Origin: Sialis fuliginosa
Taxonomy: Eukaryota > Arthropoda > Insecta > Megaloptera > Sialidae
Assembly (NCBI GenBank): GCA_961205875.1
Contig: OY540816.1
Span: 16,936,701-17,000,700, forward strand
Length of the DNA: 64,000 nucleotides
Direction: 5' to 3'
Numbering within the stretch: position 1 is the first letter of the stretch; each line of letters starts with the position of its first letter. Shown one piece after another: positions 25-53,188 of this stretch. Position numbers and translations under genes: made by a program. The notes below the pieces were generated by a model. That model did no database searches. It saw only the letters and a program-made list of their open reading frames with translations, and was not told the origin of the DNA.

Positions 25-10333
<10,309 letters not shown>

Positions 10334-13301: not shown

Positions 13302-16300
13302 CTACGCAAGATGAGACAAATCATCTAACTCTGGCGGTGGATGCAGTGTCTCAGTTTTTACGCCACTTTGAGCAAACATACCTTTCGGAATGACGGAAAT
13401 CGGTGACTGTTGGACTGATATCGGAGACTGTTACAAAAAATTATTTTAATCATTTTAAATTTATAACTAAAATGTTGTTATGCTGTTAATTATTTGTATT
13501 AATTATAAAATTATTAAAATGTGCTGTTATCATTATCCAAACAAAATAAAAACACATCGTAAGGAGGGCATTCCCCAAGGTATATAAAAACAAGGTAGTC
13601 TCATCAACTCCTTAACCCATCAACCATGGCGTGGGAATTGATGTCACCACGAAGACATATTCAAATGTTATAAATGTATAATAGAATATCAATTACAAAA
13701 AATTCCTTTATTTATTCTTGTTTTTGTATTTTTTGATATTTTAACAACACAGACAATCAAAGAAGTACAAATTCGACATTGCAGAATCATAAAAAAGCTG
13801 TCATAGACAATTTGGTCAATTCGAGAAGCGTCAATTTTACTATTCTTAAGTTGGTAATACGTTCTGTGATTCTAACAGCTTTTATGATTTTGCAATGCCG
13901 AATTTGTACTTCTTTGATTGTATGTGTTGTTAAAATATCAAAAAATACAAAAACAAGAATAAACAAAGGAATTTTGATATTCTATTATACATTTCTAACA
14001 TTTGAATGTCATTTCTCGAGCTGATAAGACTACCTTGTCTTTATATGCCTTGGGCATTTCCCTTGTCAAATCTATCCAAATCAGATTCAACAACTGAAAA
14101 ATATGTAGTATATAAGTTTCTGATCAATCAATATTTATTTCACATGTATAGAAACTAAGAATTATTTGTTTCTATATGTGTGTTTTGATAAAGTTGCTAA
14201 ATAGATACTTTTATTATATTATTATGAATGATTTACTTCTTACTCAACTTTTATATAACGTCAACAAAATTTTAATATAAAATTAATTGTTAACCCTTGA
14301 ACATCATACTGGGTCTCGCTAACCCAGAACATTAGGAAAATGTGCGTCATTTATGAATTATAATTATTATAATTCAAATAAAACCCATATATTATTTTTT
14401 AAGTTATGATTTAAAAAAAAATACAAATTGTTTATTCTTTTTACTTGATATCTTGAGTATCATAAGATTTACGACTTTCTCAACTACACATTAGTTTTCC
14501 TTACTATCTACCGTCCATTAGGTACCGAGATATAAGAAAATGAAACCACTGAGTTACGCTATCCTATGTGTGGTGTCCAAGGATTAACCATGTTATAATC
14601 ATTAATACAAACAGTTTTCCTATTTGAATCTAAAAATTTGTTCATGTTTGTAGAATACCCACAACTTTTTACGACGCTCGCCCACATACTCATTATCATT
14701 TACTAAAACTATTAAAACTTAAAAATATCCTCCCCCTTTGTACACACCTGACTAACAATAGGTGCAGAATTAGCACCTGACGTACTAGGCGGCATACACA
14801 CAACGACCAGTTTGGGCGGAGCTGATATGACCTTCTGTGGTCGTTGAGTAACTATAACGTACTTAGAATTAGGGTTCTGCTGTCGTACTTGAGAAGCACC
14901 ACTCATTACGATCGTTCTGCCGGGTGTCTGTGGTGTATTCGAGATGTTTGTAGCCATCGTAGGCGTCCTGGCCGGAGCACTCATACTTGTAATGACCGTA
15001 TTCGAGGACGAGACCATGCTTGAAGAGGTAGTTGCTGTAGGTTGAGTGCGAGCCTTAATCACTGCTGCTTGTAAAGCAGTGCCCAGATATCTAAAATTAA
15101 CATATATTCATATTTGTACAAATTCTCAAGATTAAATTATTTCCTATTGATATACACACCCATATTCATATTTATAATCTTCAACATAGTCAGGCGTAGG
15201 GCGCACAGTCTTCAATATGGGTGGCAAAACTTTCATAACTAAATGTTTTATATGTCCTGCGGCTATTCCATCTGGATTATTCGAAACACCTCCTTCGAGA
15301 TGCGGTTCTATTCTTTCTGATATATACTTTATCCGTGGAAAAATAAACACTTTAATAACCTCTGCACCGAGTTCAGAGAGTCCTTCAATTGCACCATAAA
15401 GACTAGATAGGGGTGTCTTGTCACCGTATAACGCTTTGCTGAACATACGCGTTACTCTTGTTTGAACATTGTTTGTACTGGTATTGAAGTTCTTGCATAT
15501 CTGTGCCATCAGACGAGATGCAAAGTCTCGTAACGCCCAGTGATTGTCATTCTCAGGACGCATGCATAATTGACGTGAAACGATGCATGTAGAAACGGAT
15601 GGTATCAATTCGTGCAACTAAACAAAACATATTCTTAGTAAAATAAGATTCATAGTACTAGCCAAACTCAGTTTGAGTATTATCAAAAACTATATATTAA
15701 TAATTTGTTAACCTTTAATAAATAGAACTTACATATTTTTCCAAATAAAGTGACTGATTGTCCAACAATGCTTTGACCATCCTCATCAAATAAATCAAAA
15801 GAGCTAAATTATTCTGTACAACATTAACACGAACACCCTCTGCTATGAAAGTGCACATTCTTGGCAGCATTTCATGTAGGCCAGGGTCGCACGCCAAACT
15901 CTGTAATGCTTCAGCCCTTCTACCTTCATCTGAACCAACGCAAGCTTCTGTTATTTCTTTGTAATACAACTGTTGTTCGACAGAAAGTTCGTGTGTTGCC
16001 AATTGTTTAACGTGCACTGTCTCGACGTTTCTAAGTTTTTGCACTTTACCAGTACTTGGTTTGCCAGCCATTTCTTTTGTAGATTTATTGAGTTTTGTGA
16101 TTGGATCAATTGATTCAAGCTGAAATTATTATAAAATTTAATATTTAGAGTTACATATTATAAACACAAAATTTATATGGTTTTGGGTATTATCAATGTA
16201 CCCTTTTTCTAATGCTATAGCTTTCTATTCTAAATTTAAAACATTTTTAAATATGCTAGAAAATATTAAAGACTTTTTATAAGCCTAAGTAAAAATAAAA

Positions 16301-16978
16301 ATTTTAAATTAATTTCTTGCAGTAAAGTAACGTTTTCAATTATATCTCAGCTCAAAAAGAGCCCTACCTACTATTATACAATACTTTTTGTATTTAATTT
16401 TGTTGTAAATATTTGCAGTTTTACATACTTTTTGTATTTCTTTTGAAACAGGTGGAGGATTTTCAGGTATAGTAGGCTGCACCCCATCAATGCACAACCA
16501 ATGAGGTCTAACAGTAACTTCAAGTGGTAATTTTGGTGCCGGAGCTTGTAAAATTTCATTTAAATCTAACTCCTTTTCTTCAACAAAATGTAATTCTCTT
16601 CCTCCACCCGATGCAAATCGAAATGGAACAGAATCAGAACAGCAAAATCCATATTGGGGCTAAAATAAAAATCAAAAACTCTGAAGAATCGTAATTATGA
16701 ACCTAAGATACAGTACCATAATAAGTATATACCTCTATATTTTTTATTTTTAATGCATGATCAACATCATTTGTGGTCAATTTTGTACGTTTAGCATGGT
16801 GCATAAATTTTGCTGAATCTTGAATAATTAATTTTAGTCTGTAAGAAATATCATCAGCAAGCTCTTTAGCTGCATCATCTGGTAAATTTGCTACTCCTGT
16901 ACTCTCTGCAATAACTTTCATTGATTCTATTGATAATGTTGTCCCATACAACAAATCTGCTTCACTCGATTTACTCAT
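13302..16978 (-). CDS. Taf6: TAF6, TFIID subunit, 6 coding exons
   Basis: TBP-associated factor 6, a histone-fold protein that pairs with TAF9 in the general transcription factor TFIID (and SAGA-type complexes in some lineages). Minus-strand exons: 16978-16733, 16659-16429, 16119-15733, 15617-15160, 15090-14748, 13427-13302, all with GT/AG borders, giving 596 aa. Exon 1 carries the histone fold (residues 1-82; SESMKV-like start, [11 protein letters not shown] near the end). Exon 2 has the linker with [12 protein letters not shown], and exons 3-4 the HEAT-like TAF6 C-terminal domain, with diagnostic stretches [35 protein letters not shown] and [10 protein letters not shown]. The Ser/Thr/Pro-rich tail (exon 5) and a short last exon ([12 protein letters not shown], acidic end) are less conserved. 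The ATG at 16976-16978 starts just before the histone fold, and length matches insect TAF6. Expected to be nuclear and constitutive. Confidence 0.97.
13566..14062. mobile_element. Foldback (long inverted repeat) element in Taf6 intron 5
   Basis: About 497 bp. The outer ends pair (GGGCATTCCCCAAGG near 13566 with CCTTGGGCATTTCCC near 14062) and long inner arms pair as well (about 13684-13812 against 13866-13983), with a centre near 13830. The intron transcript could form a long imperfect hairpin. The 81-aa plus-strand frame inside is a by-product of the arms and not a gene. Confidence 0.75.
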
Positions 16979-17110
16979 CTTTGTGTTATATTTATTAAAA
17001 TTACAATTTTTAAATTATTTTAGGTTCTTTCCACGCCACTCATAAATTCGCCATTTTGAATACTATCAGTTATACCAACTTTTAGGTCAATCTATAGTGA
17101 TGCATCAGTA
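16979..17110 (-). promoter_or_regulatory. Probable Taf6 promoter and 5' UTR
   Basis: Sequence immediately upstream of the Taf6 ATG. It contains no recognisable TATA box; a CGCCATTTTG motif lies at about 17051. Assigned by position only. Confidence 0.35.
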
Positions 17111-28700: not shown

Positions 28701-31700
28701 TCACTTCAAATGAAATTATCTTCACTATAACTACAGAAAAATAAAAAAATGTATATAAAAGAAAAGAGAATTACTATATCTACATGTTATACTACCTACT
28801 CAAACAAATAAATTTAAAATAAAGATAATTTTTAGAGTTAATTAGAATCGATCCATCTCAAATAATATTAAATAAAAATAATTAAACATACGGATGTTAT
28901 AATGACTACTAATTTAATATAACATTACGCATTTAAGATTTATCTGTTTAACGACAGACCGACATACAATAGTATCTCCTTTGTTAAATATTAATCGGTG
29001 AATGACACGCAGTCATAAATAAATTAGTAGTGACTTTATGTTAGTAGATGCGAAGGACATCATCATACGATGCACTTGGGACAATGATAAAGGACATTCA
29101 GACTTACCATAATCTCCACGGCCCATTGCACCACGCATGGCTCCCGGGGCCCCACGAGGGCCGGAACCCATGCCTCGTACCGGCATTGAACCGCCACCAA
29201 ACATACTTGGATGAGAAGGTGATAATCTGTACAGACACAATAATACATCAGAATTAGTTCATGTAACTAACATTATAATATACATGTCTATTACCTGAAA
29301 ATCTCAATAAAGGATTAACATTTTAGAAGCAGATAGAATTTAAAAAAAAAAAAGACTATAAAAGCAACAAAAGAAAATTATTACAATTAAATTATCTAAC
29401 ATACCCGCCACGAACTTGCATCATTTGCATCATGCGTCTCTCACGGGCTCGTAAAATTTCCTCCTTTTTCTTTTTATCGGACGGAGGTTTTGCCAATGAT
29501 ACTTCTATGTTTGAACCACCCATTTCTTTGCCGTCTAATCCCTGCATCGCCTGTAAAATAAAATCATCGATTGAAATAAACATTTTATAGATTTATTTAA
29601 TTGTCGTGAGTTACTTAAGGGAAAAAGCAACTGTGACAGAAAAAAAATAGATTTTTTTAAAGTATAATAAAAAAAATCCTAAAATAATAAGTAATGCCTG
29701 TGGTTTTCCCCCTTAAATATAATGTTCAATTATGAATGAATGATCAAGTACCTTAACAGCATTATCTCTATCTTCAAAATGAATAAATGCATAATCTTTG
29801 ATTTTCTTCACACGTTCTACCTTTCCAAAAGCTTCAAATGATTCCTTGAGTTTCTCCTCACTGGTTTCTTGTGTCAAATTTCGTACGTACAATACCTTTA
29901 CTTTGCTCATAGTTTGCTCATCAGGCTCCTCTTGCGGATCTGCCCAATCTACGATTATATCGCAACCCCATACCTGTTGAATAAAGAAACAATAACATAT
30001 TAGAAAACGAAACTAGAAAAAAAAATGATAAATTACCTTTATACGCCCCGTTCCTAACCGACGTTTAGCCAATGATGCTGCTTTGTGAGACTCGTATTCA
30101 AGAAAACAAAATCCCCTATTTTTCTTCTTATCATCAGGAGAGCTGTATATGATTACCTCCATCAACCCGGCTGCGCAACACAAGAACGCATATTAAAATA
30201 ACGCAACACGCCTGGGACACGCGAGCCCCACGCTGCGATTGACTGACGGGGAGGAGATGTGAATATGAACAGAAAGTCAGGAGCCGGGAATCCAGCGACA
30301 AAATCATAACACTACTGCGTGTTGCTACATTATTACTTATGCAATTTAGAATACATTCTTTTTTTTTTTTCATTTTTTTCCGTTTTTTATTCTTTTTTTT
30401 AAATATAAGGAACAAAAATCATCACAAGTTGAAAAAGTAAACATATTTCTTAATAAATATTAAAGTTTAAAGAAATGAATAAAAAAAAACAATATTTTAA
30501 TATTAGGATTGTTTCTAAAAACTGATGTGAAAAATTGATAAAAAAAATATTTTTGCAATTCCATGACACGCATCTATTTATTGAGATATATATTAACAAA
30601 CAAAAAATAACTACTACGGAAAAAAACTTATACAAAAATCATATCGACAGATTGATAGCCAATTTATATTACAAAAAATACTTACACTGCGAAATGATTC
30701 TATATAAATATAACCCGTAGTTACCTTCAATAATTGTACTGGCAGGGGTGATGATGCATATATTTCAATATCTGGTTCACTATTATGGGACTAGTTCACC
30801 CCCGAATCCGATAAATAATAAATAACAATCTGATTATAAATAAATGGCAATCAATCTGTGACTGAATGGAACGTGTGATAAAATTGAATGAAAGTAAATT
30901 GGCTACAAAAAGTACAATTGAAGTAGATAGCTGTTCTTTCTTAATAAAAAAATTAAACATAAGCTAAAAATTTTGTTACAAAAAAAATCTAAATAAAACC
31001 ATAAAATGTTTATAAAAATAAATCAAATAACAGCGGTGTAATATTTGTAACGAATTTACTTTCTGATAGTTTCAAAGAAATATCACACATCCATAGAGAT
31101 AATAATTTAAATAAATTTCTACAGACATGGATCAACAAGTCCCAGAAAATTATTTTTAGGTTGAAAATCTAACTCCCCAATCAGCCAATGTTTCAAATTG
31201 TGTCACTTGTTTCAGTTAATTTGTCATTTGTTTATAATAATATACAAAATCAAATTGTAATTAAAATGTAATTAATATTAAAATATTAACAAATTTGGCG
31301 TTTTTTCTAATATACACTGATGGTTCACAAGCGTCACAATTGAAAAGTACGTGGACTCAGCCACTGTTTCCCTGCGCCCCATTACTCTCCATCAGTTATT
31401 GCATGCTGTCGTGCGGCGCGTGCGAGCAGCCAGACCGGCTCCCCGCACGCACGCTAGAAACCCGATAGGGCGACACACTACAACAGACGGGCACCGAGCG
31501 GTCAGAGACATATGCATCATCATCACAACTTACGTGCGTGTTTGGAAAACTCTTCGAATAGATCGTCCCGATCTCGGTTCTTTGGTATATTGCCGACAAA
31601 CAAGCGGTGATTGTTATAAGAAACTGTTACGCCGATCTTTTTGCCCTTTCGTATTTCACAATCATTGAGCTGCAAGAACAATGCGGAAGGGTAGTCGCCG

Positions 31701-33983
31701 GCGGGCGCAGGGTGGGACGGGCGGGGGGGTTATGGTAGTTAAGGGGCGAGCCCTGCACTGCTTGTTTTTGATTTTGAGCACATTACCTGTTAATTTACCA
31801 AACTCGTCCAGTATCTCCTCTTTGCCTTTAGACTTTGGTATGTTGCCGACAAAAAGCCGCAGATTTGGAACGCTAATGTTAATTTTCAGACTCTTGCCGG
31901 GTTTGATTTCGTGATTATCGAGCTGTGGGACAAGAGAAAACATGCCAAATTTTGTTCATCAAATCAGTAATAAACCTGGCGTCATTGCGCCCGCAAAAAT
32001 AAAATATAACAAAACATAAAAAATTTAGCAACAGTAACAGATCAGTAACAGCCGTGCCGGTAATTTTGCTCCGACACGCCGAAACCGCCGGCCACCTATC
32101 GAAAATAAAACACTGAAATTTTGGGTTTGATTTTGCTGCTCGTTCACCGGAACCAGCCGAACGTCAATTTCTCTTATCGACAACGTGCCAAATGTTACAA
32201 TTTTGTAGTCAGGCGTGGTCTTCCGTCGCACTGCAAAGAGGAGACCTGTAATCAAAACAGTCAGCCGATCTGGGAACCGAATCATCTCGAATGCCAATTG
32301 TTCGCAGCAGACACCATCTTCTGTGGTCTCGATTTTGATATGGGCGAAATTTTGGTCGGGGCTCGTTATGTAGTAAGGAGTGACAGACAGACAGAAGCTA
32401 AGTCAGATGAGTGTGTGAAAGAGTTATGAAAGAGAGACAGATGAGTGAAGGGTACGGCGAGCGTAGATGCGTTGACAAAGTCAGCCGTAGCTTTGGCAAC
32501 GTAACACGCCTCGGAGCGCCTGCTTCCGATCTACTACAACATCGGTTCATTAATCAGTTTATTACACTTCTCAATTAGCTCGATTGATTCCGGCCGTTTT
32601 GTCAACGGCGTAACAATTACTTGTTTTGCAAACGACATCAAAGGATGACAATGAGTGCAATTGAGAAATGCAGAGTTAAAATTAGATAATTTCATTGGTA
32701 TATAATATACAAAATAAATTTACACTGAAATACATTTTTACAACTGTCCCAACTGGCTCTACATTTTCATAATTTAGCATCAATTCTTATATTCCAATGA
32801 ATTATCAAACATTTTTTCAACACAATCATACAAACAATTTTTCGACCAAATGATTATAATTTCTGAAAAATAGAAGCCGATTAAAATAATTTCTACAGCC
32901 AATCAAATACATCCAATTGATATAATAATTTTTTAATAAACAGGACACTTCCAATTTTGCATAAAATAATTTAAATTTAAGTAAATATTAACTTGTTTAA
33001 CATAATTTTAACTCTATAAATATCATTCATTTCTAAACAATTATTATAATGTATATCTTATGAATTTAAACACCAAGCAGAAATAAATACAATTAAACAC
33101 AAAGATACGCATAACTGGAATGTCCAGAAACAAATCTCGTTCATTCTACATTCAAACTGAGACCACTTACCTCTCTGACTGCTTGTTGCGCTGCATCCCT
33201 TGTTGTGAACGTAACAAATGCATAACCCCTATTTGTTCCGGTCATTGGGTCCATCATCAGACGGAGGTCCCAAATTGTGCCACATTTCTCAAATAACGGA
33301 ATCAATTCATCTTCAAACATATCCTAAAATACCAATTTGTCATGTTTTCCTTATTACATCACCATAAATAAAATTCTAATTTATTTATTAAAATAATAAG
33401 AATTTAAACACTTTACCTTAGGTATCTTTCCACAAAACACTTCACATCCATTCCCTGGTGCAGGCCCATCCCATTCTGGAGGAGGGCCTCCATATTTCCT
33501 TTGACCTGTAGTTACATCTAAAGTATAGCCTGTTCTTTCTAGAATTTGTTTAATTTTATCTTCATCAGGACCCTTTGGAGGTGTAGGAGTCGGCTGTGCA
33601 GGACCCTATTTACATTTTATTATAAGAAAATAATAAATTAAACATATTAATTATTATCTAACCTGAGCTGCTACTGCACGACTTTTTTGTCTGTAAGTTT
33701 TCATCACACCACATAAATAGGCCGACTTGTTACTAACGTGTTCAAGATTTGAGTCGAGAAACTGCCCCAAAACAGATAATGCCCCGTCTACGGGAAATTC
33801 TTTCAAAGCATCCAGCGCTCTTGTATCTAAATCAACATGTGCTAGTTTCCCTGTCTTATAAATATCATCAAGCTTGGCCGCCACCTTCTCGTCAAGTCCA
33901 TACTCAACTAATTTGGCATAATCTTCTGTACGTTGACCATCGTCTCCACTGTCCATCTTCATTTCACCGTTACCCTCCGCCAT
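21614..33983 (-). CDS. Syp: Syncrip (hnRNP Q/R) RNA-binding protein, 11 constitutive-path coding exons
   Basis: Multi-RRM protein that binds mRNA; the family acts in mRNA transport, stability and splicing in nucleus and cytoplasm. Minus-strand exons: 33983-33663, 33605-33417, 33323-33171, 31669-31534 (or alternative 31922-31787), 30170-30037, 29973-29752, 29550-29405, 29226-29108, 27599-27436, 22955-22772, 21798-21614; all phases agree and the sum is 650 aa. Exon 1 is the acidic NURR-type domain (residues 1-107). RRM1 has RNP2 EVFCGKIPK and RNP1 [12 protein letters not shown]2 RLFVGNIPK (about 243) and [12 protein letters not shown]3 VLYVRNL (about 338) and KDYAFIHF. The insect-type linker [21 protein letters not shown], a Tyr/Asp-rich segment, an Ala/Arg/Gly-rich segment and the conserved tail GKRKLDGG...[11 protein letters not shown]...QQPLG follow. 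The ATG at 33981-33983 is chosen because the conserved protein starts there; an in-frame ATG at 34037 is upstream. Confidence 0.97.
22000..22366. other. Distal last Syp intron, no further feature seen
   Basis: AT-rich intron sequence between the candidate alternative exon and the last exon. No inverted-repeat element or frame recognised. Confidence 0.4.
22367..22491 (-). CDS. Syp: Candidate stop-containing alternative exon giving another Syp C-terminus
   Basis: 125-bp segment with acceptor AATATGCAG and strong donor GTAAGG. Joined to the donor at 22772 (phase 1) it continues the frame with [19 protein letters not shown], then [12 protein letters not shown] and a TGA at 22397-22399. It lies in the last intron. 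The stop is only about 30 bases from the exon's 3' end, so the message could escape nonsense-mediated decay. Unusually GC-rich for this AT-rich intron, which supports an exon. Alternative C-termini are known for vertebrate SYNCRIP. Confidence 0.6.
22956..24677. other. Syp intron, AT-rich
   Basis: Intronic sequence. A possible MITE remnant occupies about 24125-24372, with TTCATAAATTACGT near its left edge and a loosely complementary AAATTTATGAATGA on the right beside an 18-base C run. No exon-like segment was seen. Confidence 0.4.
24678..24731 (-). CDS. Syp: Candidate 54-bp in-frame cassette exon of Syp
   Basis: Between exons 27599-27436 and 22955-22772, whose junction is phase 0, lies a 54-bp open segment bounded by an AG acceptor (TTAAAATAG) and a GT donor (GTTTGTTG). 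It would insert 18 residues, [18 protein letters not shown], without disturbing the frame. It interrupts the Tyr/Gly-rich and Arg/Gly-rich parts of the tail. The evidence is splice-site fit, phase and composition only; a weak donor lowers confidence. Confidence 0.55.
25342..26158. mobile_element. Large foldback palindrome in Syp intron
   Basis: About 817 bp in which the left half is the imperfect reverse complement of the right half. It begins CGATGAAAGGAACAAATTCG and ends CGAATTTGTTCCTTTCATCG; the arms meet at an A/G-rich and T/C-rich centre near 25750. Internal words CGGACCCGTCGATTAG and complement, and TTCTGAACACTTTTTGTACAG and complement, pair precisely. No coding capacity. The transcribed intron would carry a hairpin with arms of about 400 bases. 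Confidence 0.85.
26380..28140. promoter_or_regulatory. GC-enriched block inside Syp, around the Tyr-rich exon
   Basis: Base composition rises well above the surrounding intron on both sides of exon 27599-27436. The block contains minus-strand donor-like sites (GTGAGTGCC at about 26744-26752 and GTAAGTAGC at about 27860-27868) and a perfect GC hairpin. It could be an internal promoter or unannotated alternative exon; neither is proven. Confidence 0.3.
27896..27938. repeat. Perfect GC-rich hairpin, 19-bp arms
   Basis: Left arm 27896-27914 and right arm 27920-27938 are perfect reverse complements made almost only of G and C (GCGCGCGCCGG...), around a 5-base loop TATAT. Located in the Syp intron between exons 29226-29108 and 27599-27436, about 300 bases upstream of the latter. 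Confidence 0.9.
28141..29107. other. Syp intron, AT-rich, nothing recognised
   Basis: Intron sequence between the GC-enriched block and exon 29226-29108. No repeats or exon-like segments identified. Confidence 0.4.
30171..31533. other. Syp intron downstream of the alternative exon pair
   Basis: Intron sequence, with T-rich and A-rich tracts near 30355-30410 and a moderately GC-rich stretch at 31370-31500 next to exon 4a. No third copy of the alternative exon was found here. Confidence 0.4.
31534..31669 (-). CDS. Syp: Syp exon 4a (canonical RRM2 start), mutually exclusive candidate
   Basis: 136-bp exon, entry phase 0 and exit one base into a codon, with a CAG acceptor and GTAAGTTG donor. It encodes a peptide beginning [11 protein letters not shown] and containing [16 protein letters not shown] and EEFSKHA, which closely follows the insect Syncrip consensus at this place and gives KHAPGLMEV when joined to 30170. 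Its twin is 31787-31922. Confidence 0.92.
31787..31922 (-). CDS. Syp: Syp exon 4b (variant RRM2 start), mutually exclusive candidate
   Basis: Also exactly 136 bp with the same phases, good acceptor (TGTCCCACAG) and donor (GTAATGTG). It encodes a divergent version: [17 protein letters not shown], then [17 protein letters not shown] and DEFGKLT, joining as KLTAGLMEV. RNP2 of RRM2 is intact, while the residues around it differ. Including both exons would shift the frame (272 bp), so only one can be used per mRNA. Confidence 0.88.
31923..33170. other. Syp intron upstream of the alternative exon pair
   Basis: Contains a mixed-composition stretch (32000-32600) with several frames but no RNP2-like coding segment, so a third alternative exon is not supported. 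The rest is AT-rich. Confidence 0.4.
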
Positions 33984-33985
33984 TT

Positions 33986-35002
33986 CTTTAATATCAATCA
34001 AAAAAATCAATATATAATTTTCATTTCTTATTTTCACTTCGGTAGCATAAAAAAATTAAATCCACATAAAATCTAGACAGACCAGAACATATTGTAATAT
34101 TTAAAAAATTATTCATTTTTTTACTGAACCGATAAAAAAAGACCATTGCATATTTATAAACACAAAATGTCCTTAAATTATTTGGTTTTTACAATAATCA
34201 CTTATCAATTAATTTGTTTAGTAAATAAAAAAAATCAAATGTTATTTTATAATTTATAACTTAATTTTTTTTAAATCTTATTTAAATTTGTTGGATTTAA
34301 AAAAAATATATATATTACATGTTATTAACCATTAAAATTTAATAAAAATACCCTATTTGTACTACAAAAATATATACATACAAGTAAACAGAACAAAAAG
34401 TGTCAAAATTATTCACCAAAAGTAAAATCCAATATTTACAACGATCCCCTTTTACAAAGCGCGGTAAAAACACGAGTCAAGACTATAACACGCTTCTTGG
34501 AAACAAGCATTTATCGGCCAGACGGGGAATGTTTCGCGGCATAACTCGTCTACACCACAGCACAATGCCCCGACAGTACAGTTCGTCAACTCTTTGCATA
34601 TATGTGCAAAATAGAAACACATATGCATTCAACGTTTGCGAGACAAGAACAGCTATACAATTTGCAAACACGTGAAGGATACTTGCGACTGTCTGGCTCT
34701 GTATGGCACTCCAGTCGGCTGATTGAAATGGTTTTAACGTCCCGTAAGCGTAAAATTCTTAATTAATGGCACCAAAAACAAACACTTTTCTATTTTATTC
34801 CTAGTGTTTCGCGAATTGTGACGTATTGCAAAAATGCAGTCTGCCGCCGATTCTTTCGTCCCTTGCACCGGCCGGCGGGATCAATGCATATATGCAACTC
34901 TTTCACAATTACAGTACACCTGCAGGACACTCTTTATAACGATCGCCGATGTCATTAAACTAAATAATCACTTATTGTAAATAATATAAATATAATATTT
35001 AC
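33986..35002 (-). other. Probable 5' UTR intron of Syp
   Basis: An acceptor (GATATTAAAG) ends two bases before the ATG, with the exon beginning at 33985. A donor-like ATAAG/GTAAAT is present with its last exon base at 35003. Together they suggest a non-coding first exon upstream. Inferred from motifs. Confidence 0.4.
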
Positions 35003-51617: not shown

Positions 51618-53188
51618 TATACAGGGTAGTTCAATAGTGCGTCCGGCTTTCCTAGCGCACGTCCTGTAGGAGATAGAAAAAAAAGTTTGGTACATAATAT
51701 TATTGGTTTGAAAAGACCAACGTCGTAAAATTATTTTCAACAATACAGGATGTCCCATTTTTGCACTATAACAAAAACAAAGATTTTTTTAAATGGAATA
51801 CCCTATAACGTTTTATGTCGTCCAATGTCATTTTTTAACCTCTACATTAACGTCTGTTAATTTTTTAATTTAGTGACAGTGTTGCCAAATTAAAAAAAAA
51901 ATCCGAAAAATTATCCATATTCAGGTTCAACTATAAAAAATCGTAGCGACCTCGTTTTTTTTGAAGTGATGAATTTTTTAGCAATAATGTTAGTCCAGGT
52001 AAAGAGTAACATTTTGGTAATAAACAATTTTAATTTAGTTCTACAGGGTGTTAATAAAAAAATGCCAAAGTTTGCAATCTTCAAAATGATAAAACTCATT
52101 TTTTTCAAATGTGACTACCCTTTTTTTATTTCACTATTCGATGGGTTTTTTTCTCCTTTTCAATTTGTATAGGAAATATCTTATGCCTAAACCCCATACT
52201 TTCTGAGATATTCAATAATTTTCACAAAAGTAACCATTTCACCACGTTTTTATGCACCGAAGTAGGCCAAACAAATGCAAAATAAATGTGAAACAATTAC
52301 AAAACAAATGCCCGTGAATTGATTTGTGCTTAGATCAAAATGGAAGACATTTTGAACATTTATTGTAGTCTTTTATCTTTTATATGTATTTTCAATTTTG
52401 TTACTTGTCATAGTTTTTTGAATAAAATAAAAATTTTTATTACACAAGTATTATCCGTTTTAATTATAAAATTTAATCAAATGTTACATTGATACTTAAG
52501 TACTTACATTTTTGCATTTCTTTTGCATCAGCACAGCCTACTTCGGTGCATAAAAACGTGGTGTAATGGTTACTTTTGTGAAAATTATTGAATATCTCAG
52601 AAAGTATGGGGTTTAGACATAAGATATTTCCTATACAAATTGAAAAGGAGAAAAAAACCCATCGAATAGTGAAATAAAAAAAGGGTAGTCACATTTGAAA
52701 AAAATGAGTTTTATCATTTTGAAGATTGCAAACTTTGCCATTTTTTTATTAACACCCTGTAGAACTAAATTAAAATTGTTTATTACCAAAATATTACTCT
52801 TTACCTGGACTAACATTATTGCTAAAAAAATTCATCACTTCAAAAAAAACGAGGTCGCTACGATTTTTTATAGTTGAACCTGAATATGGATAATTTTTCG
52901 GATTTTTTTTTTTTAATTTGGCAACACTGTCACTAAATTAAAAAATGAACAGACGTTAATGTAGAGGTTAAAAAATGACATCGGACGACATAAAACGTTA
53001 TAGGGTATTCCATTTAAAAAAATCTTTGTTTTTGTTATAGTGCAAAAATGGGACACCCTGTATTGTTGAAAATAATTTTACGACGTTGGTCTTTTCAAAC
53101 CAATAATATTATGTACCAAACTTTTTTTTCTATCTCCTACAGGAAGTGCGCTAGGAAAGCCGGACGCACTATTGAACTACCCTGTATA
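51618..53188. mobile_element. 1.57-kb near-perfect palindrome (foldback element)
   Basis: The left arm (51618 to about 52280) and right arm (about 52520-53188) are reverse complements with very few differences; the spacer is about 240 bp, centre near 52403. Ends are TATACAGGGTAGTTCAATAG and its complement. Small frames recur in mirror image (65/61 and 68/61 aa pairs at 51911-52172 and 52631-52877), which shows they are arms and not genes. Internal words such as ACAGGATGTCCCATTTTTGC pair with GCAAAAATGGGACACCCTGT. Confidence 0.92.

Follow-up and report, generated by a model that had tools for sequence, protein, structure and literature searches.

Pairs of mutually exclusive exons are familiar as a class, and in insects they are exemplified by Dscam, 14-3-3zeta, Mhc and MRP1, in which adjacent homologous exons are used one per transcript and competing intron pairings have been described (accessible part of PMC6071210). 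Among vertebrates, exons 4a and 4b of OGDH, as presented in the available text of PMC7969005, are two exons around a short middle intron with a distant branch point and a long AG-free pyrimidine tract, and transcripts that contain both exons or neither are unproductive. The pair that we describe here, exons A and B of the Syp (Syncrip) gene of Sialis fuliginosa, resembles OGDH 4a/4b in these respects, its distant branch point being a predicted one, and resembles the insect genes in consisting of adjacent homologues of which, in our reading, one would be used per transcript; unlike in those insect genes, competing intron pairings in Syp are so far a lead from one species only.

In the accessible portions of two papers on Drosophila Syp, the variants are said to differ mainly at their two ends, with the RRM region largely unchanged (PMC7932510), and the gene is described as combining four promoters with common exons and a choice of four C-terminal ends (PMC10730016). 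These isoform descriptions, as far as the available text goes, count against an internal exon pair, and the phrase "mutually exclusive" occurs 0 times in the text of PMC7932510. Counting for such a pair is the response of Drosophila Syp pre-mRNA splicing to the depletion of 11 RNA-binding proteins, which was confirmed by RT-PCR, the event itself being unnamed in the part of PMC4617972 at hand. A literature search that ran over the obtainable portions of main texts, most subscription papers lying outside it, gave no paper that we recognised as describing the A/B pair in Syp; "CG17838" and "mutually exclusive" both occur in the available text of PMC5014079 and PMC4603746.

The window, by which we mean the whole 64-kb stretch of DNA that was analysed, carries the Syp gene on its minus strand (Table 1), and more 3' exons of the gene probably lie beyond 29108. 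The two isoforms as modelled have 473 residues, isoform B differing from isoform A in the swapped exon only. Both score above the curated cut-off of the NCBIfam family TIGR01648, hnRNP-R-Q (518.9 bits for isoform A and 511.8 bits for isoform B, the cut-off being 317.85 bits), and Pfam RRM_1 is found in two stretches of each partial isoform (91.9 bits for B, 88 bits for A). Residues 16-240 of isoform A align with PDB 6es4, the Drosophila N-terminal domain plus RRM1, residues 240-422 align with PDB 6kor, RRM2-RRM3 of human hnRNP Q, and residues 332-418 align with 2dgu. The protein predicted from isoform A has, by these alignments, the domain order of hnRNP R/Q, with three RRMs after an N-terminal acidic domain, and human hnRNP Q/R (6kor, 9ejy) show the same order where aligned.

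Table 1. Features of the Syp locus, in positions of the window
Feature	Position	Strand	Description
Syp/SYNCRIP gene body as modelled	29108..33983	minus	predicted ATG at 33983; N-terminal acidic domain, RRM1, RRM2, RRM3
Upstream exon, common to both isoforms	33171..33323	minus	RRM1 core; donor 33171, phase 0 out
Candidate upstream partner GCGGGCGCA	31986..31994	minus	63 nt before acceptor of A; 9 pairs; would loop out A
Exon A	31787..31922	minus	136 nt, 45-residue peptide; RRM1 end, linker and RRM2 beta1-alpha1
Intron between A and B	31670..31786	minus	117 nt, 40% C; 81-nt AG-free stretch before acceptor
Predicted branch-point A (TTAAC)	31739	minus	sole YTNAY in middle intron; prediction only
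Candidate common pairing element CCCTGCGCCCGC	31701..31712	minus	middle intron; found post hoc, one species
Exon B	31534..31669	minus	136 nt, 45-residue peptide; alternative to exon A segment
Candidate downstream partner GGGCGCAGGG	31370..31379	minus	154 nt after donor of B; 10 pairs; would loop out B
Downstream exon, common to both isoforms	30037..30170	minus	remainder of RRM2; acceptor 30170

Elsewhere in the window we observed a run of open frames at 4057-10333 (plus strand), which resemble what we take to be an MRP-type ABC transporter gene, and a further set at 14712-17014 (minus strand), with a histone-fold start at 16703-17014, which presumably represents the gene for the TFIID subunit TAF6. 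An inverted repeat at 51618-53188 forms a near-palindrome of ~1.6 kb, with inner arms at 51974-52293 and 52510-52829 (320 nt, 96% complementary) and outer arms at 51618-51901 and 52905-53188 (284 nt, 99% complementary).

Exons A and B are both entered in phase 0 and left in phase 1, each with AG before it and GT after it, the splice contexts being ...cttgtcccacag/CTCGAT ... TAACAG/gtaatg for exon A and ...ttgttcttgcag/CTCAAT ... ACGCAC/gtaagt for exon B. An earlier, sequence-only reading had put forward these two exons, and its coordinates, the 136-nt lengths, the phases, the peptides and the flanking junctions at 33171 and 30170 were all reproduced from the sequence. When eight exons were joined in simulation, the product with exon A only and the product with exon B only were both open, over 473 codons without a stop. 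Joining A to B instead gave a product that ends ...KLTAQ, and leaving out both gave one that ends ...REPG, the stop being in each case the third codon from the junction. The frame therefore admits the use of a single exon only, and the earlier claim that inclusion of both would break it was borne out. Thus A and B are neighbouring homologues that agree in length and phase, are bounded by AG/GT sites and keep the frame only when included singly.

Since the A+B product and the product with neither exon stop immediately, both should be unproductive, presumably through nonsense-mediated decay. This raises the alternative that the pair is mainly an on/off switch, in which an untranslatable mRNA with A+B or with neither exon lowers the dose of Syp, possibly via an action of Syp itself or of partner RNA-binding proteins on the Syp transcript. 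That both wrong products stop at once is in its favour, as is the finding that, in Drosophila cells, SYP binds the mRNA of QKR58E-1 and QKR58E-1 that of Syp (PMC4617965), although binding of SYP to its own transcript is not shown in the available portion of that paper. Such a switch, however, leaves unexplained the full homologous coding capacity of both exons, and we consider it very improbable as the main role of the pair.

That the two exons are true homologues, and not blocks of equal length that happen to lie side by side, follows from their comparison with the rest of the window. A and B are identical at 19/45 residues and 74/136 bases. By codon position the identities are 24/45, 29/45 and 21/45 for positions 1, 2 and 3, and although these differences are small, agreement is lowest at the third position, in keeping with coding constraint. 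The 64-kb window contains, both strands counted, 293 blocks of the form AG-136-GT, of which 26, A and B included, are open in the entry frame; scored against exon A with BLOSUM62, exon B reaches 106 whereas the best of the other 24 open blocks reaches -15, and 100,000 shuffles of exon B gave a maximum of 32. In an ungapped scan, the three introns yielded no third copy of the exon that was convincing (best 25-residue score 18). At the level of the genome, where the best candidates were scored, a search with the exon A peptide returned three matches, two of them A and B themselves and the third a locus on a different contig, C2, and a search with exon B DNA returned B alone.

The 117-nt intron flanks of A and B showed no similarity in an ungapped comparison (54/100 and 73/100 shuffles reach the observed values), and since no leftover similarity was detected there, the duplication looks old. 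A recent duplication, or one produced by the assembly, is rejected on the 74/136 base identity together with the undetected similarity in the intron flanks. The lengths, the phases, the homology and the stops in the wrong combinations are explained far better by tandem exon duplication, with either copy used in turn of the other, than by anything else. We therefore consider it very likely, judging from sequence, that A and B arose by an old tandem duplication and form a mutually exclusive pair of Syncrip exons, exactly one of which would be spliced between 33171 and 30170.

Comparison with other animals may indicate which copy has changed more. The last 19 residues of the 6es4 chain, which is Drosophila Syncrip isoform K, match exon A at 18/19 positions and exon B at 6/19; isoform K thus has, as here, an A-type sequence at the end of RRM1, in a comparison that spans the 19 residues up to where the 6es4 chain stops. 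Against a composite human segment built from two human chains, one of hnRNP Q and one of hnRNP R (PDB 6kor, 9ejy), A has 29/45 identities and B has 22/45. Each copy is therefore nearer to the human sequence than to the other (19/45), as would be expected of two functional copies. Because its identity to both Drosophila and human is the higher, exon A looks nearer the ancestral type and exon B more changed, with few residues compared. Shared with Drosophila over the 19 residues, exon A probably predates the split from flies. A B-type sequence (NRDRDEL...) probably also exists in Drosophila, and we would expect the fly annotation to contain both versions. A scan of viral contigs confirmed no relative.

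The third match of the peptide search (L004:1300-1758, on contig C2) is a single-version relative of the RRM1-RRM2 segment, in which RRM1 and the homologous segment follow each other in a single open frame that lacks the Syp intron; it is identical to A at 18/45 residues and to B at 17/45, and we take it to be part of an A1CF/RBM47-type gene. As a separate observation on the same genome, five-unit TTAGG repeats gave 2537 forward and 3660 reverse matches, whereas the backward control gave 0 in either direction. TTAGG telomeres are generally considered absent from Diptera, and the repeats thus fit an insect that is probably not a fly.

The greater distance of exon B from Drosophila (6/19, against 18/19 for A) and from human (22/45, against 29/45) could also mean that one of the duplicates, likeliest B, is decaying or seldom used. 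At the divergence seen between A and B, however, one would expect a dead exon of 136 nt to have acquired stops or to have lost its splice sites, whereas the frame of exon B is open, its donor (gtaagt) and its acceptor are good and RLFVGNIPK is kept; with Pfam RRM_1, the partial B isoform reaches a score as good as that of A. We regard such decay or disuse of one copy as extremely unlikely.

What would the exchange of A for B do to the protein? The block RLFVGNIPK, which holds the beta1/RNP2 strand of RRM2, is identical in the two exons, and the differences are dense on either side of it: 6/19 of the first residues, in the tail of RRM1, are identical, and 3/15 of the last residues, in the loop and helix that follow the block. 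According to the accessible part of PMC5827114, the Drosophila construct of N-terminal domain plus RRM1 ends at residue 243, and the linkers between the RRMs of Drosophila Syncrip are called very short. As residue 243 is the end of the 19-residue stretch compared above, the exon starts within the final portion of RRM1, spans the linker and ends past alpha1 of RRM2. The sequence-only reading had the pair swap the front of RRM2; this holds in so far as the exons cover beta1-alpha1 of that domain, but it is incomplete, since the first 19 residues belong to RRM1, as judged from the end of 6es4, and the linker comes after them.

The same reading went on to propose different RNA recognition surfaces of RRM2, which the comparison does not support as put, because RLFVGNIPK is the same in both exons and the other differences within RRM2 lie in the beta1-alpha1 loop and in alpha1. 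In RRMs, helix alpha1 lies against the rear face of the sheet, and the last strand and the linker can contact RNA and fix the angle between domains. From this anatomy, from the unchanged RNP2 block and from the position of the RRM2 differences, a changed arrangement of RRM1 and RRM2 appears likelier than a changed recognition face of RRM2. What is exchanged would thus be a single module that runs from the last strand of RRM1 through the linker into the first part of RRM2, with RNP2 of RRM2 kept, and the swap should change the placement of RRM1 and RRM2 relative to each other on the RNA, and through this target preference or the binding of partners, and not the base-reading face of RRM2 alone.

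How one exon comes to be chosen is a separate question. The most likely working mode is regulated competition between the two sets of splice sites, backed by the frame: one exon would be chosen by such competition, and errors of double inclusion or of skipping would be cleared through the frame. Surveillance of the frame matters if errors occur, as both wrong products stop, but it does not choose the exon. Incompatibility of U2 and U12 sites was set aside as a cause of exclusion, as the sites around A and B, read by eye, are all GT-AG with ordinary gtaagt or gtaatg donors. Branch-point spacing and competing RNA helices are both candidates for a more specific mechanism.

In the first of these, exclusion would be hard-wired by geometry, as in exons 4a/4b of vertebrate OGDH, the branch point of the middle intron lying too near the donor of A for the two exons to be joined. 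The GC content of the middle intron is 59%, against 36% and 32% in the adjoining introns, and its AG-free stretch is the longest among seven Syp introns (the 3' introns being left out), the other six having 24 to 61 nt. Its tract is pyrimidine-rich, and its sole YTNAY, the predicted branch point, lies 48 nt from the donor of A and 69 nt from the acceptor of B. In OGDH, branch points were mapped at 25-41 nt from the donor in human and at 46 nt in Mola mola, with a steric threshold of ~50 nt (PMC7969005, in its accessible part), so that the Syp distance of 48 nt is longer than the human range, and the Syp tract is C-rich whereas that of OGDH is U-rich.

A further difference from OGDH argues against the spacing: a shorter distance between donor and branch point is predicted in another intron of Syp itself, the 63-nt intron at 30036-29974, where an AG-free YTNAY is predicted 37 nt from the donor, and a spacing of 48 nt is therefore probably tolerated in S. 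fuliginosa. Moreover, the Syp intron at 33416-33324 has no YTNAY that is free of a later AG, which makes the motif an unreliable guide, all branch points here being predicted. On balance, we consider exclusion by branch-point geometry unlikely.

The second candidate has an element in the middle intron pair either with a partner upstream, looping out A, or with a partner downstream, looping out B, but never with both. The predicted 9-pair helix has a duplex energy of -20.9 kcal/mol and the 10-pair helix one of -25.2 kcal/mol, and since both use TGCGCCC only one of them could form at a time, each looping out one exon. A pair of helices of such length at a common site arose in 4/200 shuffles of the middle intron and in 3/537 random pairs of 200-nt flanks from the window. 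A similar layout, with competing pairs each looping out one of two duplicated exons, appears in Figure 3b of PMC6071210; in the available text of that paper, such layouts are seen as a product of exon duplication, and the introns to the left and right of a cluster tend to pair with internal introns.

Against this stands that the helices were found post hoc and in one species. The best local duplex energies are ordinary when the middle intron alone is shuffled (38/60 and 52/60 shuffles reach the observed values), as are the longest single pairing runs (62/200 and 21/200), and the fold of the middle intron on its own is not unusual (z -0.33). A GC-matched control gave 0 hits, but comprised 4 cases only. 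For global duplex energies, the numbers of shuffles out of 100 that reach the observed value were 18 for I1end-I2, 97 for I1mid-I2, 1 for I2-I3start, 0 for I2-I3end, 33 for I1end-I3start, 58 for I1mid-I3start and 1 for I1end-I3end. The values of 0/100 or 1/100 in three of these seven tests come from a null that ignores the uneven GC along the introns; as shuffling levels this strong unevenness, the global long-range energies were set aside. The control above that shuffles the middle intron alone, and so keeps the partner intact, showed nothing unusual. Rfam gave 0 matches at gathering thresholds in 30000-34100.

Exclusion by competing helices thus appears quite unlikely, and we regard the helices as a weak lead from one species. 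A fuller version of the same idea, in which the GC-rich element would be a two-way switch that loses exactly one exon and thereby exchanges the RRM1-RRM2 junction and resets the arrangement of the RNA-binding domains, is distinctly improbable. Were it true, it would add a layer of isoform control that is absent from the accounts of Drosophila Syp in the accessible parts of PMC7932510 and PMC10730016.

Syp is a gene with several known roles: in Drosophila, according to the portions available, it acts with Imp in the timing of neural fate (PMC13253536), at the neuromuscular junction (PMC4174441) and in spermatocytes (PMC10730016). The interest of the pair lies in the position of the swap within the protein, as against Syp isoforms that have, in the literature accessible to us, been characterised chiefly by what they carry at either end. 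The pair allows a clean test of the way in which an exchange of linker and edge strand, with the RNP2 motif kept, bears on the choice of RNA. Should the RRM1-RRM2 junction indeed occur in both forms, rescue experiments and lists of targets that are based on one isoform would cover only part of the function of the gene.
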